Positions 1-43,813 of a DNA stretch of 48,985 bases are shown in pieces. Source of the DNA: Arthrobacter sp. H20 (GTDB taxonomy: Bacteria > Actinomycetota > Actinomycetes > Actinomycetales > Micrococcaceae). The DNA is taken from assembly GCF_000520515.1 (NCBI RefSeq), contig NZ_KI914713.1, forward strand, positions 1 through 48,985. The letters run 5' to 3'. The translations under genes and the position numbers were made by a program. Below the pieces are notes generated by a model that saw only the letters and a program-made list of their open reading frames with translations, was not told where the DNA came from and searched no databases. Each line of letters starts with the position of its first letter. Positions within the stretch are counted from its first letter, which is position 1.

Positions 1-3000
1 GAGGAGATCCAGGTGCGTATCCTGCCGGCGCAGCAGAACGGTGACGACGACTCCTACGGTGCCGAAGCCGTTCCGCAGGGCAGCATTTGGCCGCACGTCG
101 AAGAGAAGATCGTCGACCTGATTCAGGCCAACCGCTCAACGATCGTGTTCGCCAACTCGCGCCGCCTCGCTGAACGCCTCACCGCCCGCCTGAACGAGAT
201 CCATTCCGAACGGCTGGAGACAGCCGCGCTGCGAAACTCTCCTGAGATTGACCCACCTCAGGGCCCCCCCGCCCAGCTGATGGGCCAGTCGGGTCAGAGC
301 GACGGCGCGGAGCCACTGCTGGCGCGTGCCCACCATGGGTCAGTATCGAAAGATCAGCGGGCCCTGATCGAGGATGATCTCAAGTCCGGGCGCCTGCGCT
401 GCGTGGTCGCCACCTCGTCGCTGGAGCTCGGAATTGATATGGGGGCTGTTGACCTGGTGGTTCAGGTGGAGTCTCCCTACTCGGTGGCCAGCGGTTTGCA
501 GCGCGTGGGGCGGGCAGGGCACCAGGTGGGCGAGGTGTCCCAGGGTGTGCTCTTCCCCAAGCACCGCGGCGATCTGGTAAACACAGCCGTCACTGTTGAG
601 CGCATGCTCGCCGGGAAGATCGAGCCGCTGTACATTCCCGCCAACCCACTGGACATTCTGGCGCAGCAGACGGTCGCGGCGGCGGCCCTGGGCACCATCG
701 ACGTCGAGGAGTGGTTCTACGTCGTCCGCCGCTCGGCACCCTTTGCGAGCCTGCCGCGTTCGGCGTTCGACGCGACCCTTGACCTGTTGGCGGGGCGCTA
801 CCCCTCCGACGAGTTCGCGGAGCTGAGGCCGCGGATCATCTGGGACCGGGTGGAAGGCACCATCACCGGGCGGCCCGGGGCCCAGCGCCTGGCCGTCACC
901 TCCGGCGGCACCATCCCCGATCGCGGGCTCTTCGGCGTTTTCCTGGTGGGCTCAGCTGAACCCGGCACCGGAGGCAAACAGGGTGGACGGCGCGTCGGGG
1001 AGCTCGACGAGGAGATGGTCTACGAATCCCGGGTTGGCGATGTATTTGCCCTGGGCGCCACCAGCTGGCGGATCGAGGACATCACCCACGACCGGGTGCT
1101 CGTCTCCCCCGCGTTCGGCCAACCCGGGCGGCTGCCGTTCTGGAAGGGCGACTCCCTGGGCCGGCCCGTCGAACTGGGCCGCGCTGTCGGCGCATTTGTC
1201 CGCGAAACCTCTGCGGCTACCCCCGAGGATGCTCAGGCGCGATGCCAGGCGATTGGCCTGGATGACTGGGCGGCGGGGAACCTGCTGACCTACCTCTCCG
1301 AGCAGCGGGCTGCCACCGAGATAGTCCCCAACGATCGCACCCTGGTGGTTGAACGCTTCCATGACGAGCTCGGCGACTGGCGCGTGATCCTGCACAGCCC
1401 GTTTGGCATGCCGGTGCATGCACCGTGGGCGCTAGCTGTTGGCGCGCGCCTCGAGCAGCGGTATGGCATGGATGGGTCGGCGATGGCGTCCGACGACGGA
1501 ATCGTCCTGCGGGTTCCCCTGATGGACGATGAACCCCCCGGGGCTGAGTTGTTTCTCTTCGATGCCGAGGAGCTTGATGGCATTGTCACGACCGAGGTGG
1601 GAGGTTCAGCGCTTTTCGCCTCAAGATTCCGTGAATGCGCTGCACGTGCCCTGCTCCTGCCCCGCCAGAACCCCGGGAAGCGCTCTCCACTGTGGCAGCA
1701 ACGGCAACGCTCGGCGCAGTTGCTCGACGTCGCCCGTAAATACCCGACCTTCCCGATCGTTCTTGAGACAGTCCGCGAGTGCCTGCAGGACGTCTATGAC
1801 CTGCCCGCCCTGAAGGAGATCGCAGCCAGCATTGAGCGCCGGGAGCTGCGGATCGTCGAGACGACGACGCCTCAGCCGTCACCGTTCGCCCGCTCCATGC
1901 TGTTCGGCTATGTGGCGTCGTTCCTCTACGAAGGAGATTCCCCCCTCGCCGAACGGCGAGCAGCCGCCCTCTCGTTGGACCCCACCCTGCTCAACGAACT
2001 GCTCGGCCGCGCCGAGCTTCGTGAGCTGCTGGACCCTCAGGTAATCGCCTCGACCGAACGCGAACTGCAGCGGCTGGCACCGGACCGGACCGTCCGCGGC
2101 GTCGAGGGTGTGGCGGACTTGCTGCGACTGCTGGGTCCGCTCACCACGCAGGAAGTGGCCGACCGCTTCCAGATGCCTGAGGAGCCAAGCGACATCCCAG
2201 CCGTCGACGAGGTGGTTCCGCTTCTCACCCAACTGGTCCAGGCGAACCGGGCGTTGCTGGTCTTCGTGGCAGGAGAAGAACGCTGGTCAGCCGTCGAAGA
2301 CGCCGCCCGGCTGCGCGACGCACTGGGCGTTCCGCTCCCGATGGGCATCCCGCTGGCCTTCATCGAGCCCGTAGCGGATCCCCTCGGAGACCTGGTGGGA
2401 CGCTACGCGCGCACGCACGGCCCGTTCACCGCCGTCGAAACGGCCGAGCGGCTGGGGCTTGGGGTAGCGGTGGTGCTGACCTCCCTGCAACGGCTCGCCG
2501 CCGACGGCCGGGTGGTGGAGGGCGAGTTCCGCCCTGTTGCTTCCCTTCCTGAAGACTCAGTCGAGGCTCAACGCCATACCGCGGCGCCCAGCGAGTGGTG
2601 CGACGTCGAGGTGCTGCGCAGGCTGCGCCGCCGGTCCCTGGCCGCACTCCGGCAGGAGGTAGAACCGGTAGAACCTGCCGCCTACGGCAGGTTCCTTCCG
2701 TCCTGGCAGCATGTGGGCTCCACTCTGCGAGGACTTGACGGCGTGGCAACGGTGGTCGATCAGCTGTCGGGGGTACCCATTCCGGCGTCGGCGTGGGAAC
2801 CGCTCATCCTCGGGTCCCGGGTGGCCAACTACACTCCGGCGATGCTCGATGAACTTACAGCTACCGGTGAGGTGGTGTGGTCCGGAGCGGGTTCGCTGCC
2901 GGGTAACGACGGGTGGATCGCTCTGCACCTGGCGGAAAACGCACCATTGACCCTCCGGCCGGACCCGGTATTCGACCCGTCCGCCCTGCAGTTGAATCTG

Positions 3001-4014
3001 CTGGAACTGCTGGACCGGGGCGGAGCCTACTTCTTCAGGCAGTTGGCCGAGTCGCTGGACTCCGAGGCGCCGCGAAACGACTCCGAGGTGGTCAACGCCC
3101 TGTGGGAACTGGTGTGGGCTGGACGGATCGGCAACGACACCTTCACACCGGTGCGCAGCCTGCTCTCAGGCGGCAAGACCGCCCACAAGCAGCGCGCTGC
3201 ACCACCGCGGGCCCGGTCGTCACGCGTCGGTAGGCTCGGACGCACCCCCGGGGCCTCGTTAACTGGGTCTTCCCTGCGGATCTCGGGTACCGACGACGGC
3301 GTACGCGGCTACCAGCGCAGCACCCCTCCGATGGCCGCCGGTCGATGGGCCGTGCTGCCGCAGGTCGAAGCGGAAACCACCGTCCACGCCCATGCCACAG
3401 CCGAACTGCTTCTGGACCGGTACGGAGTAGTCACCCGCGGATCGGTGGCCAGCGAAGGCACCCCCGGCGGTTTCGGTCTGCAATACAAGGTCCTGGCCCG
3501 GCTCGAAGAAATGGGCAGGTGCCGGCGAGGGTACTTCATTGAGCACCTGGGCGCCGCCCAGTTCGCGGTGCCAGCCACTGTGGACCGCCTGCGCTCGTTC
3601 GGCGCCGACGCTCAGCAGGAGCGCCGCCCGGGTGAGGATTCCGGCGTCGTCCGGTTTTCAATTGCCCTAGCCGCTACCGACCCGGCCAACCCCTACGGCG
3701 CCGCCCTGGCCTGGCCTGCCTCCGACGGTGGGCACAGACCCGGCCGGAAGGCTGGCGCCATGGTGATCCTGCAGGACGGCCATCTGGCCCTCTATGTGGA
3801 ACGCGGTGGCAAAACAGTGCTCGCCTTCACTGATGATGCGGCGGCTCTGAATGCAGCAGCCGTTGCGCTGGTAGCTGTAATCCGCAGGGGTGCAGCCGAA
3901 AAGATGGCGATCGAAAAGGTTAACGGAGAACCGGTACTGGACTCGGAGGTGGGCCGGGCCCTGACCGCCGCAGGGTTCTACTCCACTCCACGGGGGCTGA
4001 GGATTCGTGCCTGA
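1..4014 (+). CDS. lhr: ATP-dependent helicase Lhr, C-terminal part (5' end outside window)
   Basis: Large superfamily 2 DNA helicase (Lhr, 3'-5' translocase implicated in DNA repair). The reading frame is open from the first base, so the GTG at 13 is not the true start and the N-terminal RecA domain with Walker A and DExH lies upstream. Visible early: the second RecA-like domain (IVFANSRRLAERL), HHGSVSKDQR, ATSSLELGIDMG and the motif VI region QRVGRAGHQ, then the Lhr-specific winged-helix and long C-terminal domains. About 1,337 residues are seen, and family members are usually about 1,500-1,700. The stop overlaps the start of the Nei-type glycosylase by 8 nt, so the two are translationally coupled. 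The same pairing is known in mycobacteria (lhr with nei2), which supports a joint role in DNA damage repair. Confidence 0.95.
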   Translation, partial: EEIQVRILPAQQNGDDDSYGAEAVPQGSIWPHVEEKIVDLIQANRSTIVFANSRRLAERLTARLNEIHSERLETAALRNSPEIDPPQGPPAQLMGQSGQSDGAEPLLARAHHGSVSKDQRALIEDDLKSGRLRCVVATSSLELGIDMGAVDLVVQVESPYSVASGLQRVGRAGHQVGEVSQGVLFPKHRGDLVNTAVTVERMLAGKIEPLYIPANPLDILAQQTVAAAALGTIDVEEWFYVVRRSAPFASLPRSAFDATLDLLAGRYPSDEFAELRPRIIWDRVEGTITGRPGAQRLAVTSGGTIPDRGLFGVFLVGSAEPGTGGKQGGRRVGELDEEMVYESRVGDVFALGATSWRIEDITHDRVLVSPAFGQPGRLPFWKGDSLGRPVELGRAVGAFVRETSAATPEDAQARCQAIGLDDWAAGNLLTYLSEQRAATEIVPNDRTLVVERFHDELGDWRVILHSPFGMPVHAPWALAVGARLEQRYGMDGSAMASDDGIVLRVPLMDDEPPGAELFLFDAEELDGIVTTEVGGSALFASRFRECAARALLLPRQNPGKRSPLWQQRQRSAQLLDVARKYPTFPIVLETVRECLQDVYDLPALKEIAASIERRELRIVETTTPQPSPFARSMLFGYVASFLYEGDSPLAERRAAALSLDPTLLNELLGRAELRELLDPQVIASTERELQRLAPDRTVRGVEGVADLLRLLGPLTTQEVADRFQMPEEPSDIPAVDEVVPLLTQLVQANRALLVFVAGEERWSAVEDAARLRDALGVPLPMGIPLAFIEPVADPLGDLVGRYARTHGPFTAVETAERLGLGVAVVLTSLQRLAADGRVVEGEFRPVASLPEDSVEAQRHTAAPSEWCDVEVLRRLRRRSLAALRQEVEPVEPAAYGRFLPSWQHVGSTLRGLDGVATVVDQLSGVPIPASAWEPLILGSRVANYTPAMLDELTATGEVVWSGAGSLPGNDGWIALHLAENAPLTLRPDPVFDPSALQLNLLELLDRGGAYFFRQLAESLDSEAPRNDSEVVNALWELVWAGRIGNDTFTPVRSLLSGGKTAHKQRAAPPRARSSRVGRLGRTPGASLTGSSLRISGTDDGVRGYQRSTPPMAAGRWAVLPQVEAETTVHAHATAELLLDRYGVVTRGSVASEGTPGGFGLQYKVLARLEEMGRCRRGYFIEHLGAAQFAVPATVDRLRSFGADAQQERRPGEDSGVVRFSIALAATDPANPYGAALAWPASDGGHRPGRKAGAMVILQDGHLALYVERGGKTVLAFTDDAAALNAAAVALVAVIRRGAAEKMAIEKVNGEPVLDSEVGRALTAAGFYSTPRGLRIRA

Positions 4015-6826: not shown

Positions 6827-7738
6827 GTGATGCAATCCCCCCTTCCCGTCCGCAACGGCGTTAACGCCACCCGGCTGCGCCTGCCCTCCGAGGGCCCCTG
6901 GGGGACAGCGCTCGACTACATTCTGGACCGCTGGAACCATGTCGATCCTGAAGGCATCGCCGCCCGCTTCGACAGGGGCGAGGTGGTGGCGCTGAACGGT
7001 GACCAGCTCACCCGGAGCACCCCGCTCACCGCTCATACCTTTGTCTGGTATTACCGGGAGTTGCCGATCGAGGAACGTCTCCCCGTCGAGGTCAGCATCC
7101 TTCACCAGGACGATCATCTTCTAGTGGTGGACAAACCCCATTTCCTGCCCACAACTCCGGGCGGCCGCTATGTGGCCGAGTCTGCGTTGGTCCGGCTGCG
7201 TGTTCAGCTGGATCTGCCGGACTTGATCCCCATGCATCGTCTGGATCGGTTGACAGCTGGGATTCTTCTGTTCTCCACTAACCCTGCCACCCGGGGAAAC
7301 TACCAGCTTCTGTTCGAGAACCGCCTGATCTCCAAGGAGTACGAGGCGGCCGCCCCGGTGAACCACAGCCTGGACCTGATGGACCATCCCCGCGTGGTCC
7401 GCAGCCGAATCGTCAAGAGCCGCACCTATCTGCTCGCCCAGGAGATGGAGGGGGAACCCAACACGGAAACCCTGGTGAGCCTGGTGGAGGAACGACTGGG
7501 CCGCGGCCGCTACCGGCTGATCCCCCACACCGGCAAGACCCATCAGTTGCGGCTGCACATGGCAGGGCTGGGGCTGGGGATTATCAATGACCCGTTTTAC
7601 CCAGTGCTGCATGCCCAGGCGCCGGACGACTACAGCAAGCCGCTCCAGTTGCTGGCGAAAAGCATCGCGTTCACCGACCCGCTCAGCGACCTCCCCCGCC
7701 GTTTTGACAGTCAGTTGCAGCTGCAGGACTTTCCCTAG
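6827..7738 (+). CDS. RluA-family RNA pseudouridine synthase
   Basis: Isomerises uridine to pseudouridine in rRNA or tRNA. The catalytic signature HRLDRLTAG (family HRLDxxTSG, Asp nucleophile) is at about residues 144-152, followed by LLFENRLISKEYEA, a typical RluA sequence. A C-terminal HTGKTHQLRLHMA motif (family TGRTHQIRVH) is also present. Its 303 residues are normal for a single-domain RluA protein. The N-terminal 80 residues are S4-like but poorly conserved. GTG at 6827 is immediately followed by ATG, so the exact first codon is uncertain by one. The target RNA cannot be assigned. Confidence 0.92.
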   Translation: MMQSPLPVRNGVNATRLRLPSEGPWGTALDYILDRWNHVDPEGIAARFDRGEVVALNGDQLTRSTPLTAHTFVWYYRELPIEERLPVEVSILHQDDHLLVVDKPHFLPTTPGGRYVAESALVRLRVQLDLPDLIPMHRLDRLTAGILLFSTNPATRGNYQLLFENRLISKEYEAAAPVNHSLDLMDHPRVVRSRIVKSRTYLLAQEMEGEPNTETLVSLVEERLGRGRYRLIPHTGKTHQLRLHMAGLGLGIINDPFYPVLHAQAPDDYSKPLQLLAKSIAFTDPLSDLPRRFDSQLQLQDFP

Positions 7739-7778
7739 CAGGTTCCCCACCCCTAGACCGCACCCCGTTGGGCCCCTG

Positions 7779-7784
7779 TAGATT
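7779..7784 (+). promoter_or_regulatory. -10-like hexamer TAGATT, six bases before a GTG start
   Basis: TAGATT ends 6 nt before the dedA GTG at 7791, as at several other genes in this window, and suggests a leaderless transcript. The GGAG inside the 6-nt gap is too close to the start to work as a normal ribosome-binding site. Confidence 0.5.
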
Positions 7785-7790
7785 GGAGCG

Positions 7791-8438
7791 GTGGACCTTA
7801 CCGATTTCGGAGCATGGTCGCCGCTGTTCCATCCCCTGACCTTCCTCGTCGTCGTCATTGACGTGTTCATTCCTGCGGTGCCGTCCGAATTCCTGGTGAT
7901 CGCGTCCGGCACCATGGCCTCCGAGGGGACACTGCTTCTGCCAGTGGCGCTGCTGACGGCGAGCCTGGGGAGTTGGCTGGGCGACATCATTTTGTACCTG
8001 CTGTTCCGCAACCGATTGACGTCATGGTTGGACAAGTACAGGTGGGGGCGCTTTATCCACCGAAGTATCCGAACTGCTGTAACTAAGGCAGGGAAGTCGC
8101 CCACCTACGCGGGACTCATCGCCCTGCGGTTCCTTCCGGCAGGGCGAACGGCAGGTGTCGCTGCGGCCGGCATCGCCAACCTTCCGCTCCGCCCCTTCCT
8201 GGCGTCCGCCGCCGTCGGCGGCATCCTCTGGGGCTCCTGGCTCGTCATGCTGGGCTACATCACCGACGTGACCACTGGGTTCCCGTTGTGGGTCAGTGCC
8301 CTGTTGGGAATGGGTGTGGGTACGCTGGTGGGACTTGTAATTGCTGCATTCCTCGCGCTCAAGCAACACCGGAAGGCTAAAACTACCGATGAGCACCCCG
8401 ACGCCGCCCACCCCCCGGCTGCCGAACGAACCGACTAG
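7791..8438 (+). CDS. DedA-family membrane protein
   Basis: DedA/SNARE-associated family inner-membrane protein of 215 residues with about five hydrophobic segments. Family landmarks are the N-terminal re-entrant region (FIPAVPSEFLVIASG), an acidic GSWLGDIILYLLFR segment, and the conserved RFLPAGRT motif before the last helices. DedA proteins move or flip phospholipids and undecaprenyl phosphate and help maintain the membrane potential; which of these applies here is unknown. The charged tail from about residue 190 is hydrophilic. The next gene begins inside its 3' end in another frame. Confidence 0.9.
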   Translation: MDLTDFGAWSPLFHPLTFLVVVIDVFIPAVPSEFLVIASGTMASEGTLLLPVALLTASLGSWLGDIILYLLFRNRLTSWLDKYRWGRFIHRSIRTAVTKAGKSPTYAGLIALRFLPAGRTAGVAAAGIANLPLRPFLASAAVGGILWGSWLVMLGYITDVTTGFPLWVSALLGMGVGTLVGLVIAAFLALKQHRKAKTTDEHPDAAHPPAAERTD

Positions 8439-9585
8439 TTCGCCGGCTGTCGCATCGGAATCCCTAGGGCACAACCCGCCATCAGACGGTGGGGCCCATC
8501 AGTCGCCCTCGCCCGTGCTGGAGCGGCTTCGGGCCGGTCGACCCAACGGTGGTGCGTCCAAGGGAACGACGCCGGACGACAGTACTGCAGCTACCGTGCG
8601 GCCCTCAGCATCCGAGACCAGTCGGCCAGTGACCCCCGCTGCAGCGCCAGGAAGCGCAGCGAGGGTGGCCACAGGTCGGGCCGGGGAGACGGGTTCAGCA
8701 ATTCTCAGGGGTGTCCGTTCCTGGGACCCCGATCTGGTCCGGCGGATTGTGGTGACAGTGGTCGTGATCGGTGCGACCCTGGGTACTGTCAACGCCGCCG
8801 GCGCCTTCGGCGGACAAGATATCCGGGAGACCCCAATCGGGACCTTCGATCCCGGCGCCACTTTGCTCTCCGTCGCCGCCCCCGCGCCGTACCTGTGGCC
8901 GGTGATCGGCGTCGGTTTGCTTGCGTACACGACCCACCAGTGGTTGCCGTCCCAGCGGCGCAGCCCCCGGCATCGCGGGCTTGGCTGGATAGTTGTGGCC
9001 GCCCTGCTCGTGACACTGGGGTGGGTTCTAGCCGTCCAGCAGGCCATGCCGACGGCGAGCCTGGCGATGATCGGGGTGCTGGTGGTCCTGCTGCTGGGAT
9101 CCCTCCGGTGGCTCAACCACTACCCAGCGCAGACCAGAACGGAAGGCCGTCTCGTGGATGCGCCGCTCGGATTGTTTCTGGGTTGGGCCGGGGTCACCTT
9201 CGCCGTTCACACGGCAGCGGTCCTGACCGTCCGCGACGTCGACTGGCTGGGATGGGGCGCTCAACGATGGGCTCTCATCGCGGTGGTGCTGCTCACCCTG
9301 GCCGCGATGGCCGTGTGCATGACCGATCGGGGGCGGATTGCCGTCGCCGTCGCGGTCGTCTGGGGATTGGCCTGCATGGTGCCCGAGCGCCTCATCGGTG
9401 ACCTGCAGTCGAACCCGGTGGCGTTCGCTGCCGGGCTGGGAGCGTTTGTCCTCATCATCTCTGCTGGATCGAGGCGGCATCGGGTGGACCATGCTTATCG
9501 CCGAGAGCTACGGGCACGTCAGATGGCTACAGTCGCTCCCATCGATTTCCACGACGACGGAGAACCCGCAGAGACCCGACTGTAG
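8389..9585 (+). CDS. predicted membrane protein with disordered N-terminus
   Basis: I do not recognise a firm family. The first ~90 residues are Pro/Ser/Thr/Ala-rich and look disordered and cytoplasmic, followed by about seven hydrophobic segments. Total size from the ATG at 8389 is 398 residues; the frame is open upstream to 8341, but the ATG followed by STPTPPTPR is the more natural start. That start lies 50 nt inside dedA. The spacing and loop pattern (an extended loop after helix 1, then four evenly spaced helices) recall TspO/MBR-like proteins, as a weak impression only. Its 3' end overlaps the convergent small gene at 9527-9832. Confidence 0.6.
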   Translation: MSTPTPPTPRLPNEPTSSPAVASESLGHNPPSDGGAHQSPSPVLERLRAGRPNGGASKGTTPDDSTAATVRPSASETSRPVTPAAAPGSAARVATGRAGETGSAILRGVRSWDPDLVRRIVVTVVVIGATLGTVNAAGAFGGQDIRETPIGTFDPGATLLSVAAPAPYLWPVIGVGLLAYTTHQWLPSQRRSPRHRGLGWIVVAALLVTLGWVLAVQQAMPTASLAMIGVLVVLLLGSLRWLNHYPAQTRTEGRLVDAPLGLFLGWAGVTFAVHTAAVLTVRDVDWLGWGAQRWALIAVVLLTLAAMAVCMTDRGRIAVAVAVVWGLACMVPERLIGDLQSNPVAFAAGLGAFVLIISAGSRRHRVDHAYRRELRARQMATVAPIDFHDDGEPAETRL

Positions 9586-9832
9586 CCACCCGCTCAACCG
9601 CGTGCCGCATATTCATCGCAGCGCTGATAGCGTGCCGGGCACCTGTCTCGCCATCGGTTTCCTCGACCAGGAACCGGAGGGTGATCCGCGGGACCCCCGC
9701 CACCACATCGAGCTGCTTTGCCTCCACCAGGTGCGCTGAGCTGAGCGCCGCTTCGGCGGCATCCATGACGGCCTCAGGAGGATGCCCTGGAAGCAATCCA
9801 GTGATGTCGAGTTGTGCGCGGAAAGAGGGCAT
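9527..9832 (-). CDS. small conserved hypothetical protein
   Basis: A 101-residue protein, unrecognised. Its sequence reads like a real mixed alpha/beta domain (MPSFRAQLDITGLLPG, then LRFLVEETDGETGARHA), with balanced composition rather than the Arg/Pro/Ser excess of shadow frames. It starts 29 nt downstream of the DUF2254 gene on the same strand, so it is probably the last gene of that unit. Its 3' end overlaps the convergent membrane-protein gene by 59 nt, which suggests convergent antisense transcripts. Confidence 0.6.
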   Translation of the reverse strand: MPSFRAQLDITGLLPGHPPEAVMDAAEAALSSAHLVEAKQLDVVAGVPRITLRFLVEETDGETGARHAISAAMNMRHAVERVATVGSLRVLRRRGNRWERL

Positions 9833-9861
9833 CCCACCAGTCTGCCATCGCCGTCCTGTCC

Positions 9862-11139
9862 TCAGCCGCGTTCTTCGTGCGGGGCAGTAACGAGGTCATC
9901 GGCCGAGCCAATCCCCGATACATCGGGGACAACCGCCGCTTTCGCGTCCGCTGTGGAGGATGCAACGTCGCGAGCGCTGGAATCGAGCGACTCCAGCTGG
10001 TACTCCAGCGGCTGGAGCCTCTCGGCGGGGGCGACCGCCATCAGGTCATCAAGTGCCAACCTCAACCGTCTGGTCACCTGCGGCGATCCGGACCCCGCCA
10101 AACGAACTTCGTCGAAACCGAGCCGCACGTACCCTTCCCAGAGCATGGTGGGCATCGTCAACCTGAGGACGCCGGCGTCGTCGTCGTGGTGCCCCGAATG
10201 CAGTGGACGGCGGCAGATTTGGCGGAGGATGTCGTGAATCCGGTCGATAGCCTGGACTGCTGTGGTGGGATCTTCGAATGGCCCCGATGACAGGGAACGA
10301 ATAGCAATGTCTACCAACATCCTGATGCCATAGGCTACGTCCTGGTTCATGGTGCGTTCGGGGCCGATGGCTACGGCCTTGACGACGTCGGATTCTGAGA
10401 GCCCGCCCGGGTTGCCCACGATCCGGAATAGAGCTGAACCGGTCGGAATGTAATCTCCGACTGCCCAGAGCAGCTCCAAGCGGCAGCCAGCGCGCTCGGC
10501 GAGGACGACGAGTCTCCGATGGTCAACGGCAAACATCACCCCGGACTTGGGCGCAACGACCAGCTCCGAACCGAGATCAGGGGCAGGACCGGGGTCGGGA
10601 TAGACGTGGTTCAAAGTCTTCATGGTGTCGTTGGCAACCCATCCCACCAGGGCAGCGACGCGCAGAGATTGCCCGATGTGGTTCAGGTACCACACCAGGG
10701 TGCCGATGCAGCTCAAGACCAGGACCATGGCCGTAACAACCGCCAATCCCGGCACAGTCCCGCCGTCGGTGGTGGTCTGAACTGAACGCATAGACAGCAT
10801 GGAGTGCGCGAACGTCCCAGCGAACAAACCGATAGCGGACTGGCTCGGCCGGTCCTGGAGAATTTGACGAACAATGCGCGGCGAAAAGACTCCCATGGCA
10901 AGCTGGACCACTACAACCACCAGCGACAGCACCAGGCCAGTAAGGGTCAACATAGCGAAGGAAATCAGGTAGAGAATCTGCAGGGCCGCGTTGGCGTCCC
11001 CGCTCACGCTTTGCGGGATCAGCGTTCCATCATCGATCGACGTAGTGATGAGGGAGGTCGCTACGCCACCGAGAATGAAGAGAACCGGTATGACCCACAA
11101 GCTCGTTTTGAGGTAATGCCCTATCCGGAAACGTTTGAT
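9862..11139 (-). CDS. DUF2254 membrane protein, probable ATC start
   Basis: DUF2254 family, with N-terminal hydrophobic segments (SLWVIPVLFILGGVATSL and later SFAMLTLTGLVLSLVVVVVQ) and a soluble C-terminal half; function unknown. A TTG at 11100 would give 412 residues but would begin inside the conserved SLWVIP motif. Upstream in frame lies KRFRIGHYLKTS, which matches the usual family N-terminus, and then a stop at 11152-11154. The only well-placed initiator in that stretch is an ATC at 11139-11137, 5 nt after a perfect AGGAGG (11150-11145). I therefore extend the gene to ATC (425 residues). Confidence is high for the gene and moderate for the start. Confidence 0.85.
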   Translation of the reverse strand: MKRFRIGHYLKTSLWVIPVLFILGGVATSLITTSIDDGTLIPQSVSGDANAALQILYLISFAMLTLTGLVLSLVVVVVQLAMGVFSPRIVRQILQDRPSQSAIGLFAGTFAHSMLSMRSVQTTTDGGTVPGLAVVTAMVLVLSCIGTLVWYLNHIGQSLRVAALVGWVANDTMKTLNHVYPDPGPAPDLGSELVVAPKSGVMFAVDHRRLVVLAERAGCRLELLWAVGDYIPTGSALFRIVGNPGGLSESDVVKAVAIGPERTMNQDVAYGIRMLVDIAIRSLSSGPFEDPTTAVQAIDRIHDILRQICRRPLHSGHHDDDAGVLRLTMPTMLWEGYVRLGFDEVRLAGSGSPQVTRRLRLALDDLMAVAPAERLQPLEYQLESLDSSARDVASSTADAKAAVVPDVSGIGSADDLVTAPHEERG

Positions 11140-29108: not shown

Positions 29109-32100
29109 ATGAGCAAGTCATACCACCGGAATACGGGGAAGGCTGTGTTGGCATCGCTAACCGGCCTTGTTCTGGCTTCCAGCATGTGGGCGCCTGCTTC
29201 GGCCATTGAATCACCGTCATCCGGTGAACCAACGGCTGAGGGAATTGAGCTCCAGGCAGTACCTGACCTCAAAGTCAGCAGGGACCTAACGGACCGTACC
29301 GGTCCAACGGCGGCCTACATCCAGTTCGCAGGCAAGGGCGCCTTCGAACAGACCCAGTCAGCTGAGGTTCGCAGCGGCATCCAGTCACCGGTCGATCGGA
29401 CCAGCGACGTCCTGAACATCAGGTCAGGTATCCAGGCGCAGGCTGACGAGGTTGCGGCCGAGGCTTCAGCTTCCCAGCTCTACACCACCACCAATACCAT
29501 CCCCGGTGTGGCCATCCAGGGTGACGCAGAGGCAATCAAGGCACTTGCTGCCCGGCCCGACGTCGTAAAGATCACCGGGATCGTACCGAAGACCGCTACC
29601 AACAAGGGCGCCGACATCGATACCCGCGCGCTTGACGCCTGGACGGCACGGGACCAGACCGGCGAGGGAGTCACCATCGCGGTGCTCGATACCGGTCTCG
29701 ATTACACCCACTCGGGATTTGGCGGCCCGGGAACCATCGAAGCATTCGAGCAGGCACAGGCGGACCTGGTTCCTGACCCCGCTCTCTTTGACGCAGCCAA
29801 ATATGTTGGCGGCTACGACCTGGTGGGTGACGACTACGACGCTGGCGACCCGGACAATGACATTCCCAAGCCAGACCTCAACCCCCTCGACTGCCAGAGC
29901 CACGGCTCCCACGTCGCTGGCACCGCTGCTGGCTACGGCGTCAACGACGACGGCGCCACCTTCGAAGGCGACTACGGCACCCTCGACGCCGCTGGCGTCA
30001 ATGCGATGCGGATCGGTCCCGGTTCGGCTCCCGAAGCCCAGCTGGTTGCCCTTCGGGTCTTCGGCTGCACCGGTTCCAGTTCGGTAGTTGGATCAGCCCT
30101 CGACTTCGTACTCGACCCCAACGGCGACGGAAACTTCGACGACCGCGCTCAGGTTGTCAACATGTCACTGGGTTCCTCCTTCCCAGCCTATGACGACCCC
30201 GAAAACGACATCGTTAACGCACTCACCGCGCAGGGTGTCCTGTCGGTTGTGTCCTCCGGTAACGACGGCGATGTCTACGACATCGGCGGCTCCCCCGGCA
30301 GCTCCGAATCAGCTCTGACAGTTGCCGCGAGCGTCGGCTCGCAGGTCACTCTGGACCGCGCGGATGTTCTTGCGCCGTCCGACGTGGCAGGACAAGCCGC
30401 TGGCCAGTACAGTGCCAACTATGACTATTCCGCCGCCACTGAGGAAGAACTCACGGGCACAGTGGTCAAGGCTGACCCAGCGAACGCCTTCGGTTGCAAC
30501 GCCTTCCCGGCAGGATCCTTTGACGGCGAATGGGTTTGGCTGCAGTGGGAAAATGGTGATGCTCCCCTCCCCTGCGGCTCGACCGTCCGATTCAACAACG
30601 TCGAAGCGGCCGGCGGAGCAGGTGTGGTCCTCGATTCGACGGATTCCGTCTTTGACGGAGGTATTGCCGGCAACCCGGCCCCAGTGAAACCGATCAGCCC
30701 TAAGGGAATCCCCGGCATTCAGTTCAACGCTGAATTCTCTGAGCAGCTGGAACCAGCTGCAGCAGCTGGAACCCTAGAGATTCGCCTCGACTCCGCATAT
30801 CAGGCAACTGCTGGCGCAAGCTCGGAAGCACTTGACACACTGGCGTCCTTCTCCTCCCGTGGGCTTCACGGCTCCAACGGGGTAGTCAAGCCCGACGTTG
30901 CGGCACCGGGCGTCTCAACTGGTTCAGTCCAGGTTGGAACGGGAACCGGCGCATCGGTGAAGAGCGGTACCTCGATGGCTGCCCCTCATGTGGCTGGCAT
31001 CGCCGCGCTGCTCTACGCTGAGACGAACTACAACCCGTACGAGATCAAATCCATGATCATGAACACGGCCATCGCTGACCTGGTCACCGCTGATGGAGTC
31101 GAATACGCTCCGAACCGTGTGGGTTCCGGGCGCGTGGACGCCGTTCTGGCACTCGACACCCCCGTTCTCGCTTACGCCACAGAACAGCCATCGCTCACCT
31201 CGGTGAACTTCGGCGTTCTGGAACTGGGCACCGAGGCCATGACCATGACCAAGCAGATCACCGTTGAGAACAAGTCAGACAATGTGATTCGCTACAGCGC
31301 CTCCTACCTGGAAGCGTCAACCATGCCGGGCGTCGAGATTGCAGTAGTCCCGCAGGAACTCGCTCCGGCTACGCTGACCAACGCGTTTGATGTTCCGGCC
31401 AATGGCACTGCGACTGTCGATGTCGTCATGACCATCGATGACCCCGCCGCCCTGGCAAAGACCATCGATCCGGCGGCCGAGGAACTTCAGTTCGGCGTTG
31501 CCCGGCAGTACCTTGCTGACGTGTCAGGCCGCGTGCAGTTCGCCAGCGAAGTGAACACACTTCGTGTTCCTGTCTACTCGGCACCGAAGCCAACCTCGGA
31601 GATTTCGGCTGGCGCGAAGATCATGTTCGAGAACGCCTCAACCCTTGAGAGCTCAGTAACGCTCGAGGGCCGTGGGCTGCTGCAGGGTGGAGAAGATTCG
31701 ACCTATGCGTCAATCGTTTCCCCGCTGGTACTCGGCGCCGAAAGCCCCCGGGCCGACGAGCGTCCGCTCGAATCCCTGTACTCTCTCGACCTCCGTTCGG
31801 TTGGAGCCGCTTCAACGGTTCCTGCGGTTCTGGCCGCCGGTGGCAACCCTGAGGGCGATCCGGACGCAGATCCTGTACAAGCGCCCGCTGTCCTGAACCT
31901 GGGCATCAGCACCTGGCAGAACTGGTCGCAGCTGGCCGGCAACAATCAGGTTGCGGTTGAACTGGATGTCGATGGGGATAGCGAAACCGACATGGCCGTC
32001 CTCACACTGCGTCTTCCGGACCTGGACATGATCGTGTTCGAGGTTGCGCCGATCCTTGAAGATGGCTCACTCGGCCAGGGCGAGAACCTGTACTTCGCCA

Positions 32101-33071
32101 ACGGTGCTGACGGCAGCCTGGACACGAACACCTTCGATACCAACGTCATCACTCTGCCGGTTCCTGTCACCGAGCTGGGACTTGATCTGAGCGCTTCAGC
32201 TCCGATCCAGTACCGCGTCTCAACGGCAAGCCCGTTCAACGTGAACGAAGATGGCGAATCAGGCCCGGTTGATGAGACTGACTGGATCGACTTCAACGTC
32301 ACCGAGCCCGAGCTGTGGTTCGAGGGCGATACCCCTGATGCAGCGTTCATTGCAGCTGAGGGTGCGACCATCGGCGTAAACCGCCAGGAAGGCGTCACCG
32401 ACGCCCGCGCGTTCTTCATTCACCACCACAACGCAACTGGCCTGAAGGATGAGATCGTCGACCTCCAGGTTGACCAGCTTCGATTCCCGGATGTTGCGGG
32501 CAACTTGCATGAAGAGGCAATCAACTGGCTGGCCGATCAGGGCCTGACCACCGGCTACCCGGACGGCACCTACCGGCCACTGGCATCGATCAACCGCGAT
32601 GCCATGGCGGCGTTCCTCTACCGCCTGGCGGGCGAACCTGCCTACGCAGAGCCAGCAGTGTCTCCATTCGATGACATCAAACCCGGCACTAAGTTCTATA
32701 AGGAGATGTCGTGGATGGCTGAGACCGGCCTGTCGACCGGCTACGAGGAGGGCAACGGCGTCGTCACCTACCGCCCGCTGGCTCCCGTCAACCGTGACGC
32801 CATGGCTGCCTTCATGAACCGCTTCGCCGGCGAGTACTGCAACATCGGCGACGCAGCGGATTACGATGCACCTCAGGTAGCACCGTTCCCGGATGTTCCG
32901 GTGAATGATCAGTTCCACCGGGAAATCTCCTGGATGGCCGAGAATGAAATCACCCAAGGCTTCCCGGACGGCGAGTACAAGCGCCTTCAGCCGGTGGCCC
33001 GTGACGCCATGGCAGCATTCATCCAGCGTCTCGATGGTTACAATGAAAACAACGGCGGTTGCAACCCGTAA
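29109..33071 (+). CDS. secreted subtilisin-like (S8) protease with three SLH repeats
   Basis: A 1,320-residue exported serine protease. A Sec signal peptide (about residues 1-32, ending WAPASA) is followed by an inhibitor-I9-like propeptide, then the S8 domain with Asp194 (AVLDTGLDYTH), His265 (SHGSHVAGTAAG) and Ser622 (SGTSMAAPHVAG). The long stretch between His and Ser contains a PA-like insert (around FNNVEAAGGAGVVL). Beta-rich domains fill residues ~700-1120. Three SLH-type repeats close the protein (from about 1128), each with a shared RDAMAAF motif (NRDAMAAFLYRLAG, NRDAMAAFMNRFAG, ARDAMAAFIQRLDG). They should anchor it non-covalently to a wall polymer, and the upstream pyruvyl transferase and GT2 could make that ligand. 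A strong terminator follows. Confidence 0.95.
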   Translation: MSKSYHRNTGKAVLASLTGLVLASSMWAPASAIESPSSGEPTAEGIELQAVPDLKVSRDLTDRTGPTAAYIQFAGKGAFEQTQSAEVRSGIQSPVDRTSDVLNIRSGIQAQADEVAAEASASQLYTTTNTIPGVAIQGDAEAIKALAARPDVVKITGIVPKTATNKGADIDTRALDAWTARDQTGEGVTIAVLDTGLDYTHSGFGGPGTIEAFEQAQADLVPDPALFDAAKYVGGYDLVGDDYDAGDPDNDIPKPDLNPLDCQSHGSHVAGTAAGYGVNDDGATFEGDYGTLDAAGVNAMRIGPGSAPEAQLVALRVFGCTGSSSVVGSALDFVLDPNGDGNFDDRAQVVNMSLGSSFPAYDDPENDIVNALTAQGVLSVVSSGNDGDVYDIGGSPGSSESALTVAASVGSQVTLDRADVLAPSDVAGQAAGQYSANYDYSAATEEELTGTVVKADPANAFGCNAFPAGSFDGEWVWLQWENGDAPLPCGSTVRFNNVEAAGGAGVVLDSTDSVFDGGIAGNPAPVKPISPKGIPGIQFNAEFSEQLEPAAAAGTLEIRLDSAYQATAGASSEALDTLASFSSRGLHGSNGVVKPDVAAPGVSTGSVQVGTGTGASVKSGTSMAAPHVAGIAALLYAETNYNPYEIKSMIMNTAIADLVTADGVEYAPNRVGSGRVDAVLALDTPVLAYATEQPSLTSVNFGVLELGTEAMTMTKQITVENKSDNVIRYSASYLEASTMPGVEIAVVPQELAPATLTNAFDVPANGTATVDVVMTIDDPAALAKTIDPAAEELQFGVARQYLADVSGRVQFASEVNTLRVPVYSAPKPTSEISAGAKIMFENASTLESSVTLEGRGLLQGGEDSTYASIVSPLVLGAESPRADERPLESLYSLDLRSVGAASTVPAVLAAGGNPEGDPDADPVQAPAVLNLGISTWQNWSQLAGNNQVAVELDVDGDSETDMAVLTLRLPDLDMIVFEVAPILEDGSLGQGENLYFANGADGSLDTNTFDTNVITLPVPVTELGLDLSASAPIQYRVSTASPFNVNEDGESGPVDETDWIDFNVTEPELWFEGDTPDAAFIAAEGATIGVNRQEGVTDARAFFIHHHNATGLKDEIVDLQVDQLRFPDVAGNLHEEAINWLADQGLTTGYPDGTYRPLASINRDAMAAFLYRLAGEPAYAEPAVSPFDDIKPGTKFYKEMSWMAETGLSTGYEEGNGVVTYRPLAPVNRDAMAAFMNRFAGEYCNIGDAADYDAPQVAPFPDVPVNDQFHREISWMAENEITQGFPDGEYKRLQPVARDAMAAFIQRLDGYNENNGGCNP

Positions 33072-40344: not shown

Positions 40345-41694
40345 TCAGGTCACAATGATCGGAACCGTCCGTACAGCCAGTGTCGCGCCAGTAATCCAGT
40401 CCTCCCACTCGACTCTCAGTTCGTACCGGCCGGAAGCTCGAGGCATTAGCATCACGTCGTAACGTTCTGCGGCGCCGAATGCCAGCACACTGGTGAGCAG
40501 GGGATAGCCGGCCGCCGAGCAGGTGGGAGCCGGCACCCCCGGAATAGACGTGTCTCTGAAGGGCCTCCCATCATGAGCAATGATCTCGGCAATCCGCGCA
40601 GGGTGCCCCGCCGCATCGGTGAAGTACATCCGGTTTGGTAGATAGTTTGCGTTCACTATCCGCAGAAGCGTTGGCTTGCGCGCCCCAGACACCACGTTGG
40701 CGGAGATGGATGAGAGACTCCACGCGCGGTCGTCCGTGTCACCCCGGTTGGACAACTGGCCGCCCAGCAGATAGAAGTGCTTGGGCTCAAACCGGTTTAA
40801 ACCGACATCCTCACCGGACAACCCGGCCGCATGGTTCATTTCATGCCAGCGCGGGTCCACCGAGTACGGAACTAGGATGGTTTCCGACTCGATGTCGTAC
40901 TCGGGTCCGTCAACGAAGGCTCTGCGCGCGCCTGGGCTCACCGGACAGCTGGGATGCACTACGGGGTCCACCACCAGTGCCCCAAACATACCCATCTGTG
41001 CGTGCAGGACGGTGTTGACATGGCAGTGATAGAAGTATGTGCCCGCCGCCCCATAGTTGGGATCACCGGGCCTGCCTGGCTCGGCCTGCCACTGGTAGGT
41101 ATAGGTATTCCCGATTTCAAAGGAAGTGTGCCCTACTCCGTCATTGCGTGGATCGGGTTCCATGCCGTGCCAGTGGATGGTGTGCGCGCCCTTACCTGGA
41201 GTAAACGTCGCATGAAAAATCTCGCCTTCCTTGGGGCGCAGTGTCGGCCCCGGCAGGCTCCGGCCGGACGCCTCTGTCTGGAAACTCCAGATCTCGATTT
41301 TTTTGCCATCATCAAATGCAAGATCGCGGGAAAAGAAGTCCAGGACCACAGCTGTTTGCGGCGTCTGCAGAAATTCCGTTCCAGGGTTATCAAGGTCAAG
41401 CTGTTCTGAACTGAAGTCCACCTGGCTGCGAAACCGGTGGTTCGGGACTCCAGCGTGGTCGTCATCAGGGTCGGGTAGGGGGATGGGCGCCAGTGTCGGC
41501 GTTGGCGTTGGCGTTGGAACCAGGGTTGGTGTCGCAGAACGTCTCGGCTTGGGCGTCGGCTTAGCAGTCGTCGACTTCGGCTTCGGCGTGGGGGTGGGCG
41601 TCGGCTTCGGCTTCGCGGTCTTGCGCTCGGCTTCTGTGCGCTTGGACCAGGGGAACCGCCGCTCCATGCTGGCGGGAACCTTGCCGTTGCTCAC
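40345..41694 (-). CDS. multicopper oxidase-like protein B (domains 1+2, Pro/Thr-rich N-terminus)
   Basis: A 449-residue cupredoxin protein. Residues 28-80 form a K/P/T-rich linker with PTPTPTP runs. Cupredoxin domain 1 has His171-x2-His174-Trp-His176-Gly and His223-Cys-His225...His231...Met234/Met236. Domain 2 (LLRIVNANYLPNRMYF, IAEIIAHDGRPF) ends the chain. The third cupredoxin domain of a classical three-domain oxidase, which carries HxxHxH and the final HCH, is absent. There is no signal peptide or membrane segment, although copper oxidases normally work outside the cytoplasm. It overlaps the partner gene by 4 nt (ATGA). It could pair with that partner to complete the copper sites. Confidence 0.88.
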   Translation of the reverse strand: MSNGKVPASMERRFPWSKRTEAERKTAKPKPTPTPTPKPKSTTAKPTPKPRRSATPTLVPTPTPTPTLAPIPLPDPDDDHAGVPNHRFRSQVDFSSEQLDLDNPGTEFLQTPQTAVVLDFFSRDLAFDDGKKIEIWSFQTEASGRSLPGPTLRPKEGEIFHATFTPGKGAHTIHWHGMEPDPRNDGVGHTSFEIGNTYTYQWQAEPGRPGDPNYGAAGTYFYHCHVNTVLHAQMGMFGALVVDPVVHPSCPVSPGARRAFVDGPEYDIESETILVPYSVDPRWHEMNHAAGLSGEDVGLNRFEPKHFYLLGGQLSNRGDTDDRAWSLSSISANVVSGARKPTLLRIVNANYLPNRMYFTDAAGHPARIAEIIAHDGRPFRDTSIPGVPAPTCSAAGYPLLTSVLAFGAAERYDVMLMPRASGRYELRVEWEDWITGATLAVRTVPIIVT

Positions 41695-43124
41695 AATGCC
41701 GCTCCTGTGATCGGTGCTTTCAGGGTCCAGTGAGCAACCAGCCCACCCGGATACAACCCTCCGGCAGCTGTCTGCGAGGGCTCAGCGTGACAGTGCATGG
41801 GGTATTCCCAGTCTGTTTTTCGGGCGGCCCAGACGGCGTCGACGGCATCCGGGGGCCGCTTGATGGGGATGATGCAGTCCTTGCGGTCCATGGGTTCCAG
41901 TTCAACCACGTCCTCCCATTGCTGAACCACAACGTGACCCTCGGGATCCACGAAGCCGTCACTGCGCGGCCAATTGTAATTGTTGCGTCCTACGGTCCAC
42001 AGGTGGTTTCCATGAAAGTGCATCTGGTGGAACACGATTCCAGGGTTGACCATTCGGACAAGCTGCCCTCCGCGCAGCGTTCCCAACTCGGTGCCCTCGC
42101 CGAACTGACGGACGTCCAGCTGTCGCGGATACCCGGAAATGAGCGTCTGTTCTTTTTGCGCCAGATTCAACTGATCGTTGGTGGTGATGCCGAGGGATTC
42201 GAATCCGCTGCGTCCGTTCAGCAAAAAGTACCGCGGGACGGCCTTCGTCCTACGTGGGTCGACGGTTCCTCCGGACGCCTCGATCCCGGCCCAGACCGAG
42301 TCAACGTCATGACAGATCCATAGCCACTGGCGCTCGAATGAAGCGAGGTTCTCCCCGACGGCCCACTGATGGTCCGGATGCACAACCAGCAGCACCCCAA
42401 AGAGGCCCAATACCCGCTCAACCGGATTGTTGGTCGGGTCGGTGTAGATGTACGTCCCGGGTGCGGTCGCATCAATTTCCAGCATTGCGGTTCCCGCTGG
42501 ATCGATGACGCCGGTGCCCACGTCGCTCTTGCCGGGACCGACCCCGTGCAGGGTGAACTGATGCGGCTTGGACAGCCGGTTGTGAACACGTATCCGGATC
42601 CTGCCCCCCACTTCAGCAATAATGGTGCGCTCCGGAAAATAGCTCGCCCAGTAGTTGCGGCGGATATAATACTGCCCGGGGTTGGCAGGGTCCGGCCCGT
42701 AGGGCTGCGGCGTTCCGTGCGGGGGCAGCGGGGCGCCCAATGGGTAGCTCCGGCTCTCCACCAGTTGCCCGCTCGCGGTGAACACCTTCGGGGCAATTGC
42801 AAGGCTAGGGCGGAAGTCGTCAACATTCGTTGGACGGTCCCCAAATCCACGGTGATAGATCAACGAGCCGTCAACCATTTTCAGGTAGCCCTCATTGATA
42901 TAGAGGTCCAGTACGCCTGGGATTGGACTGACAGCCATCGGCTGGCTCGATGCCACCACTCGGCCCTGGGTGCGCTTGAGTGGCTGCTGATGAACCAGTG
43001 CAGCCACTCCCACCCCCGCGGCGGCTCCATACCTGAGGAAGTCCCACCGGCCCAGCTGCCCGGCCGCAGCCACAAGATCGGTAGCTTCCGCAACATCCTG
43101 CGGCCCATTATCGATATCAGTCAT
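41691..43124 (-). CDS. multicopper oxidase-like protein A (degenerate domain 1, intact C-terminal HxH motifs)
   Basis: A 477-residue multicopper-oxidase-like protein. A degenerate Tat-like stretch is seen at 25-45 (GRWDFLRYGAAAGVG; only one arginine). Domain 1 retains His188-x4-His193-Gly but has YIYTDPTNN where a Y-H-x-H motif is expected. The C-terminal domain has His366-x2-His369-Phe-His371-Gly and His444-Cys445-His446, but Ser450 replaces the type-1 copper His normally four residues later. Two trinuclear-type HxH motifs therefore remain. It is coupled by 4-nt overlaps to genes on both sides. The degenerate sites and the complementary set in the next protein suggest a heteromer. Confidence 0.88.
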   Translation of the reverse strand: MTDIDNGPQDVAEATDLVAAAGQLGRWDFLRYGAAAGVGVAALVHQQPLKRTQGRVVASSQPMAVSPIPGVLDLYINEGYLKMVDGSLIYHRGFGDRPTNVDDFRPSLAIAPKVFTASGQLVESRSYPLGAPLPPHGTPQPYGPDPANPGQYYIRRNYWASYFPERTIIAEVGGRIRIRVHNRLSKPHQFTLHGVGPGKSDVGTGVIDPAGTAMLEIDATAPGTYIYTDPTNNPVERVLGLFGVLLVVHPDHQWAVGENLASFERQWLWICHDVDSVWAGIEASGGTVDPRRTKAVPRYFLLNGRSGFESLGITTNDQLNLAQKEQTLISGYPRQLDVRQFGEGTELGTLRGGQLVRMVNPGIVFHQMHFHGNHLWTVGRNNYNWPRSDGFVDPEGHVVVQQWEDVVELEPMDRKDCIIPIKRPPDAVDAVWAARKTDWEYPMHCHAEPSQTAAGGLYPGGLVAHWTLKAPITGAAL

Positions 43125-43813
43125 GATTTCGACAACCAGCCCGGCCGGTTGAGCACCGAAGGCATCTCAAGCGGCAGAGGTTCGCCGTGGCTCCAGGGAT
43201 CGGTGAACTCAGCAAAGAGTCTTTTCGCATCGGAGGGCACCAGGAAGTTGATCCAAAAATAGCTTGTCGATTGCGCTGCCAATGGGCCCGTTACCGCTTC
43301 CGCGTCCCTGTTAGTCACTGTGGGTCCGTCCGCCCCGATCTGCAAGCGCAGTTGACCCGGGGCAAAGAGCACTGGACGGTCGGTATGGTTACGAACCTCG
43401 AGCCGAAGTGCGAGATGTTCTCCCCAGGTGCTATTGGCCGGTTGACCCGAGTTACCTACACCCACCGTTCCATGACCGCTGTGGGCCGGACCGGACTTCA
43501 TCAGGTCACCAATACCGCCTGGCCCGTTCGCCGGGGGGAACCTTAGCTGGCGCTCGGCCTCGCTCAGGCGAACGCTGCCAAAAGAAGTTTTCACTCCCGA
43601 CACGGTGGTGAGAGTACCGCTGGTCAAACCAACGGCCACGAGGCCACCCATGCTCACTGTGCCGGCTGCCGTGACACCGATCAGCACCCCGAATACCCTG
43701 CGTGTCAGGCCAGGCTTGTCCGCTGGCCTGATATCCGTGCAAACGGTGGGCTGCACAACCTCCCCCAATAATGTGGTCATCGGCTCATCCGCTCTTATTT
43801 GTAGACTTAGCAT
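43121..43813 (-). CDS. membrane-anchored/Tat-like exported protein, first gene of the cupredoxin operon
   Basis: A 230-residue protein; an internal ATG at 43780 would give 219. Residues 36-64 read LTRRVFGVLIGVTAAG..., a TRRVF twin-arginine-type motif followed by a hydrophobic helix, so it is predicted to be a Tat substrate or a Tat-type membrane anchor. The exported part (from about 66) is beta-rich (LALRLEVRNHTDRPVLFAPGQLRLQI), like DUF4352/Ig-type domains, and contains HSGHG (111-115), a possible metal site. It is the promoter-proximal gene and overlaps the oxidase-like gene A by 4 nt (ATGA). I infer that it exports or anchors the two oxidase-like proteins. Confidence 0.75.
   Translation of the reverse strand: MLSLQIRADEPMTTLLGEVVQPTVCTDIRPADKPGLTRRVFGVLIGVTAAGTVSMGGLVAVGLTSGTLTTVSGVKTSFGSVRLSEAERQLRFPPANGPGGIGDLMKSGPAHSGHGTVGVGNSGQPANSTWGEHLALRLEVRNHTDRPVLFAPGQLRLQIGADGPTVTNRDAEAVTGPLAAQSTSYFWINFLVPSDAKRLFAEFTDPWSHGEPLPLEMPSVLNRPGWLSKS

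Follow-up and report, generated by a model that had tools for sequence, protein, structure and literature searches.

Copper ligands divided between two adjacent genes of Arthrobacter sp. H20 suggest a heteromeric multicopper oxidase with a candidate Tat carrier

In the 48,985-nucleotide (nt) stretch of Arthrobacter sp. H20 analysed here (contig NZ_KI914713.1, positions 1 to 48,985; hereafter the window), three genes that we call C, A, and B were read from the sequence and its open reading frames (ORFs) as one head-to-tail operon on the minus strand, at 40345-43813 (Table 1). A and B are cupredoxin proteins with complementary sets of predicted copper ligands. We consider it probable that they form a heteromeric multicopper oxidase with a trinuclear copper cluster at the interface, co-exported on a single twin-arginine translocation (Tat) signal that has moved from A to C in this lineage. 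An original prediction, made from the letters of the window, had proposed that A and B are complementary halves of one oxidase; the conservation of the divided ligands, the co-occurrence of the genes, the adjacency or fusion of A and B, and a confident model of a natural fusion all support this.

In the proposed mechanism A and B would be obligate subunits of one multicopper oxidase. Domain 1 of B would supply the type-1 copper site and two HxH motifs and domain 2 of A the other two, and the O2-reducing trinuclear cluster would arise only once A domain 2 packs on B domain 1. The packing would resemble that between the protomers of homotrimeric two-domain oxidases, from which interface trinuclear clusters are known, or that between domains 2 and 3 of MnxG-type oxidases. 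The type-1 copper of B would take up the electrons and hand them on to the cluster through its Cys-His link. The two proteins would presumably fold and assemble in the cytoplasm before the complex is exported by Tat, the single signal being carried by A in most lineages and by the added subunit C in the lineage of the window.

Conservation of the ligands was followed in an A alignment of 83 rows (the window, 80 loci from the scan described below, and two Indioceanicola loci) and in 79 B rows; many of these rows come from close relatives and are therefore not independent. His369, His371, His444, and His446 of A are invariant, in the case of the first motif (HFH) partly by selection because HxHGNH was contained in one of the two scan patterns. 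Position 445 is Cys in 66 rows, Gly in nine, and Asp in eight, so that the Cys is missing in 17 of 83. The original prediction had placed all four HxH motifs exactly and had rightly noted that no type-1 His follows HCH in A, where every row has Ser at position 450. In B, H171, H174, and H176 were found in 78/78 rows and H223, C224, H225, and H231 in 79/79, with Met (58 rows) or Leu (21 rows) at the axial position. The prediction thus had the HxH pair of B right and overlooked the complete type-1 site in the same domain. This full site (H171, C224, H231, M236) explains why A does without one. Invariant cluster histidines in A, together with type-1 ligands in B only, are what would be expected if A needs its four cluster histidines and no type-1 site, and B needs cluster histidines and a type-1 site alike. 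With 83 rows of A and 79 of B showing this arrangement, it is not due to chance.

Jointly, A and B hold the predicted ligand set of a multicopper oxidase (four HxH motifs and a type-1 His-Cys-His-Met/Leu site), and neither holds it alone. Two-domain oxidases of type C carry trinuclear ligands in both domains of one polypeptide, and here the HxH motifs are confined to domain 2 of A and domain 1 of B; the type-1 site of B (H171, C224, H231, M/L236) lies in domain 1, as in type C. A three-domain oxidase has four HxH motifs and the type-1 site in a single chain, and each chain of the pair has two HxH; ordinary oxidases with all four motifs were present for comparison at L243, L244, and L245. Nor do the proteins have the make-up of six-domain MnxG-type enzymes, as A and B match two Pfam families each (Cu-oxidase_3 and Cu-oxidase_2, above the curated cut-offs) and the fused form has 781 residues. 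No NCBIfam family scored above its cut-off for the window genes C, A, and B.

Table 1. Genes, junctions, and putative functional residues of the C-A-B operon in the window.
Feature	Position	Strand	Description
Gene C	43121..43813	-	230 amino acids (aa); N-terminus like a signal anchor with a twin arginine (TRRVF), then a linker containing His and an Ig-like beta-sandwich; proposed Tat carrier
Gene A	41691..43124	-	477 aa; two cupredoxin domains, with no copper HxH in the first and HFH and HCH in the second; type-1 site absent
Gene B	40345..41694	-	449 aa; N-terminal linker rich in Pro/Thr/Ser; HWH, HCH, and full type-1 site in cupredoxin domain 1; no HxH in domain 2
C/A junction	43121..43124	-	ATGA (4 nt) shared by the C stop and the A start; from sequence
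A/B junction	41691..41694	-	GTGA (4 nt) shared by the A stop and the B start (GTG); from sequence
C, TRRVF twin-arginine motif (residues 37-41)	43691..43705	-	From sequence and C alignment
A, HFH (369-371)	42012..42020	-	Proposed part of trinuclear site; both His in 83/83 A rows
A, HCH (444-446)	41787..41795	-	Proposed part of trinuclear site; both His in 83/83 rows, Cys in 66/83
B, HWH (174-176)	41167..41175	-	H171 upstream is the expected first type-1 ligand; 78/78 rows, one more row truncated
B, HCH (223-225)	41020..41028	-	C224 is the type-1 Cys; 79/79 rows
B, H231	41002-41004	-	Completes type-1 site with M236; 79/79 rows
B, M236	40987-40989	-	Axial type-1 position

A first set of 147 related genomes contained A in 20, B in 22, and C in 21, and every one of the 20 genomes with A also had B and C; a search for such co-occurrence had been suggested as a check of the original prediction. 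The additional B matches (G073 and G110) were partial, with weak E-values of about 1e-11 to 1e-13. In the additional C genome (G059), C is followed by a stretch that matches only the last 51 aa of B; this locus looks decayed. Six of the 20 A genomes have A and B joined in a single open frame (741-875 codons), and the frame of G006, one of the six, is interrupted within B. Class-wide and phylum-wide samples were positive in 3/345 and 2/296 genomes, the genome of the window counted. A and B were also adjacent on two plasmids of the alphaproteobacterium Indioceanicola.

A wider set was obtained by scanning a species-genome collection with an A profile and keeping the best 80 of 88 confirmed stretches. 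Because the scan worked through two short peptide patterns, one around HxHGNH, it favours loci with this motif and is not exhaustive. By their record labels the loci, many of them metagenome bins, belong to Pseudomonadota, Bdellovibrio, Nitrospirae, Armatimonadetes, Desulfuromonadales, Chloroflexi, Actinomycetota, Bacillus, and Phycisphaerae. Among the best 80 A loci, 28 are A-B fusions, 48 have B next to A (the B frame opening within 270 nt of the A end), and four have no B in sight. At two of these four the contig stops 20 and 114 nt past A; the others, L145 and L154, are true A-only copies whose strains also hold A-B copies (L147 and L150; L148). Frequent occurrence of A or B alone would have spoken against the pairing; A is adjacent or fused to B at 76 of 80 loci.

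Fused forms within the same family raise the question whether A and B look separate only through a frameshift or a sequencing error in an otherwise ordinary fused gene, and one of the 48 loci with B next to A (L137) does resemble an interrupted fusion. This explanation is refuted by split pairs at 48/80 loci in about nine phyla (record labels), 20 of them with a stop/start overlap, and we give it practically no credence. The overlaps in question are of the ATGA or GTGA type and comparable to that of the window's A/B junction; a C/A-type overlap was comparable in 18 of the 38 loci carrying C. Both window overlaps had been described beforehand as ATGA, and both are indeed 4 nt long, but the sequence reads ATGA at C/A and GTGA at A/B.

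Alternatively, A and B may be independent two-domain cupredoxins, for example homotrimers, that merely share an operon and have each lost half of their ligands, neither being a full oxidase. Taken singly, both resemble nitrite reductases or two-domain oxidases in sequence, and A-only or B-only copies do exist. However, the remaining ligands of A and B are complementary and conserved, 28 of 80 loci are fusions, the fused state changed four times on the tree, and one fusion was modelled with confidence; independence is accordingly rated as very improbable. Some observations weigh against obligate pairing all the same: A was found without an intact B nearby at L145, at L154, and on plasmid pTC1, lone additional B copies occur in two genomes, and the invariance of A's first HxH arose in part by construction of the scan (HxHGNH). 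On pTC1 (L026), decayed A-B fragments at 2134-3263 lie about 7 kb from the intact A, which has C upstream and no B.

The structure of a natural fusion (L138, 781 aa), a homologue and not the pair of the window itself, was predicted with a predicted local distance difference test score (pLDDT) of 89.6 and a predicted template modelling score (pTM) of 0.91. Only residues 387-392 and 405-417 fell below a pLDDT of 50, the latter segment lying at the A-B linker. The alignment behind the model had 76 rows, with distant non-actinobacterial A rows and some distant B rows excluded; a joint alignment of fused, A, and B rows was set aside because distant A rows fell on the B half. The B part superposed on the two-domain oxidases 2zwn and 3g5w with Z 24.6 over 255-256 residues at 2.3-2.4 Å; the VIA-align structural rows reached the B half only and say nothing on A. 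Full-length Foldseek matches were factor V, the Mnx chain 9bxa_A, ceruloplasmin, and factor VIII (TMq 0.41-0.49), and the shorter factor V/VIII chains 4bdv and 9mot gave TMt 0.53-0.56. For 9bxa chain A (Mnx complex, 1217 residues), which ranked second among the full-length matches and which we take to be MnxG, TMq was 0.49 at a root-mean-square deviation (rmsd) of 10.6 Å, given without residue ranges, and motif positions are compared with it as counterparts. The whole-chain matches are loose (rmsd 9-17 Å), which counts against the proposed architecture. In the window's own pair, the trinuclear cluster would sit at the A-B interface.

Export was addressed through the N-termini. A twin-arginine motif ahead of a hydrophobic stretch is present on A at all 30 scorable loci outside Micrococcaceae/Microbacteriaceae (two of them from one species) and at 0/50 scored loci inside this clade. 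The truncated L173 (Phycisphaerae) and L182 were left out, and the automatic call was overridden by reading for L109, L110, and L114 (present) and for L166 and L179 (absent). On a tree of 81 scored rows the loss from A is one change; the quick tree warned of long branches, and the careful tree was run without a mixture model. A signal-like N-terminus was seen in none of 50 B proteins examined, three of which have an uncharged 13-mer of hydropathy above 1.2, all well inside the N-terminal region. One subunit with a twin-arginine motif and a signal-less partner, the arrangement of a Tat hitch-hiker, are thus found on both sides of the clade boundary: the motif stands on A outside and on C inside, and B has none. 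The statement that A and B both lack a normal signal held for B; residues 25-44 of A (GRWDFLRYGAAAGVGVAALV) form a Tat-like helix that is short of one Arg. The TRRVF motif and the hydrophobic stretch described for C were seen in the sequence.

C was found at 35 of 51 clade loci and at three basal actinobacterial loci where the twin arginine is still on A (L133, L134, and L183, the C of L183 being at a contig edge). Both arginines are kept in at least 90% of the 38 aligned C rows; a pattern search found the twin arginine in 35/38, and SRRSAF of L134 and SRRVF of L166 were added by reading. The His-containing linker is common among C rows. The C model is an Ig-like sandwich of low-to-medium confidence (pLDDT 72.6, pTM 0.58), its fold weakly resembles YjhA (3cfu, E 5.4e-4), and a Pfam match to DUF4352 stayed below the gathering score (E 0.12, 13.2 bits vs. 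25.9). Thirteen of the 16 clade loci without adjacent C, representing 11 genomes, were checked genome-wide, and C is encoded in ten of these genomes. In one of the ten, C stands beside a 40-aa stretch of A. No A or B lies within the 1.5-kb flanks of C in G149, G150, and G151 (nor within 8 kb in the strain of G150), and of the two C copies in G148 one is close to a contig end and the other has neither A nor B beside it.

C is best read as a Tat carrier and anchor, and a part in copper delivery is conceivable. Hitch-hiking of A-B on C is suggested indirectly, by the twin arginine being on A elsewhere and on C here and by the presence of C in 10/11 genomes whose A locus lacks it. The implied order of events would be a gain of C, then loss of the second Arg of A, and then loss of the rest of the A signal in the fused group. 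A helix matching R-x-x-[FLVAM]-[LV]-[KR]-x-G, in which a single arginine of the pair survives, is found in 20/24 split clade A proteins, and neither this helix nor a twin-arginine motif is present in any of the 27 fused clade proteins; the only fused protein outside the clade, L133, has the twin arginine.

The same helix supports a different account, in which A-B is heteromeric but in Micrococcaceae is exported through A's own one-Arg helix, or is cytoplasmic, and C is a separate membrane protein, for example for copper delivery or anchoring. Twin arginines still present on L157 and on the broken L050, fused A-B loci without adjacent C, and the His-containing linker of C would all fit it. Yet C is present in all 20 A-bearing relatives and in nearly every checked genome with a C-less A locus, and the helix, like the twin-arginine motif, is gone from the fused clade proteins while C has both arginines. 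We regard this account as unlikely, though worth keeping in view.

Carriage by C remains our preferred explanation, and several results weigh against it. Because one Arg and the FLK-like part are retained in the 20 split clade members, the A helix may still work. C is not adjacent at 16/51 clade loci, no C was found in the eleventh genome (a 3.1-Mb bin), and in five of the ten C-encoding genomes C adjoins another A copy. The broken A copy of L050 (same family, outside the best 80) keeps RRDALK, and the A of L157 has the twin arginine one residue further upstream; the changes on the tree rise to two when L050 is scored as having the motif and to three when L157 is. L050 is a second C-A-B locus of genome G071 (6841-10214), in which A is interrupted.

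Among known systems, the closest are the type C two-domain oxidases, to which we take 3g5w and 2zwn to belong: they too have the type-1 site in the first domain, and the B half superposes on them as given above. PMC13151041 describes a trinuclear site shared by two protomers in two-domain oxidases. Unlike in the A-B pair, where two genes provide one half each, one gene gives both halves of a type C enzyme and the product is a homotrimer. Bacterial six-domain oxidases have their trinuclear site between domains 2 and 3 according to PMC3600357, and A domain 2 and B domain 1 would together correspond to this domain 2/3 site of MnxG-type enzymes. MnxG depends on the accessory proteins MnxE and MnxF (PMC5622069). 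In contrast to A-B, MnxG is a single chain, with a mononuclear site reported in domain 2; in A-B the gene break falls between the two domains proposed to form the cluster, and the counterpart of domain 3 is the one with the type-1 site. Among the 60 best sequence matches listed, the Mnx chain did not appear.

Heterodimeric fungal laccases with a small subunit likewise consist of two different polypeptides, and in these the large subunit carries all copper ligands. For nitrite oxidoreductase NxrAB, a signal-less subunit has been proposed to be co-exported on the twin-arginine signal of its partner (PMC3578206), and such co-export is said there to be observed for related enzymes; NxrAB differs in not being a multicopper oxidase, and the signal of A-B-C sits on different subunits depending on the lineage. 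Matches listed from the open PMC literature included no multicopper oxidase with trinuclear ligands split over two genes, and in the closest known enzymes a single gene encodes both halves (PMC13151041, PMC3600357, and PMC5622069). Annotations of A on three plasmid records read 'Tat domain protein', 'multicopper oxidase domain-containing protein', and 'hypothetical protein', and with such annotations the A-B pairing is easily missed.

Distant A/B-like pairs in Nitrospirae and Chloroflexi genomes show the same division of ligands, with HxH and HDH in A and HCHRNT in B. We put at even chances a broader proposal that includes them (up to three pairs per genome in Nitrospirae): an old and widespread class of obligately heteromeric oxidases, with a gene boundary through the active site and O2 chemistry only in the assembled pair, whose movable Tat signal passed from A to C in actinobacteria before a signal-less A-B fusion arose. 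A cluster built half and half from two genes would show how copper oxidases get split, controlled by assembly, and fused again. The series of signal states (on A; on A and C; on C with a one-Arg helix on A; a signal-less fusion) amounts to a natural experiment on Tat co-export. The distant pairs lie at L236 (4103-12074), L237 (4321-7619), L238 (3073-6575), L239 (3247-6560), and L240 (2896-6690), three of them within one Nitrospirae genome (L236, L237). Their A proteins have the twin-arginine motif, and their B proteins have HTIHWHG and HCHRNT and often a longer C-terminus.

As to the reaction, membership of the superfamily suggests an ordinary oxidase reaction with O2, the substrate being perhaps phenols, Cu(I), Mn(II), or Fe(II). 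The informative neighbours are related to copper or redox chemistry: CopC/CopD (L127), SCO1 (L113), CCP_MauG, and CHRD proteins. Of these, CCP_MauG, SCO1, and CopC/CopD indicate a copper and redox context only. CCP_MauG-like genes lie beside or near A-B at L110, L111, L117, L123, L124, and L128 (Desulfuromonadales, Armatimonadetes, and Phycisphaerae), called by Pfam on L117 and by similarity at the other five loci. NRAMP Mn transporters are found near A on two Micrococcaceae plasmids (L026, 7390-8640; L027, 6592-7842), one of which also has a metal-dependent regulator. Mn as the likely substrate was considered and dropped, the ORFs of the other loci having given one distant NRAMP match (L150).

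Within the window, a low-complexity Pro/Thr/Lys linker at the start of B was located at 41470-41613. The B linker is long and variable in most split Micrococcaceae, often preceded by an Arg/Glu/Ala-rich stretch, and is absent from L165, L179, L185, and the fused group. Elsewhere in the window, at 29109-33071, a subtilase-like secreted protein of 1320 aa was read by eye to end in apparent SLH-like repeats.

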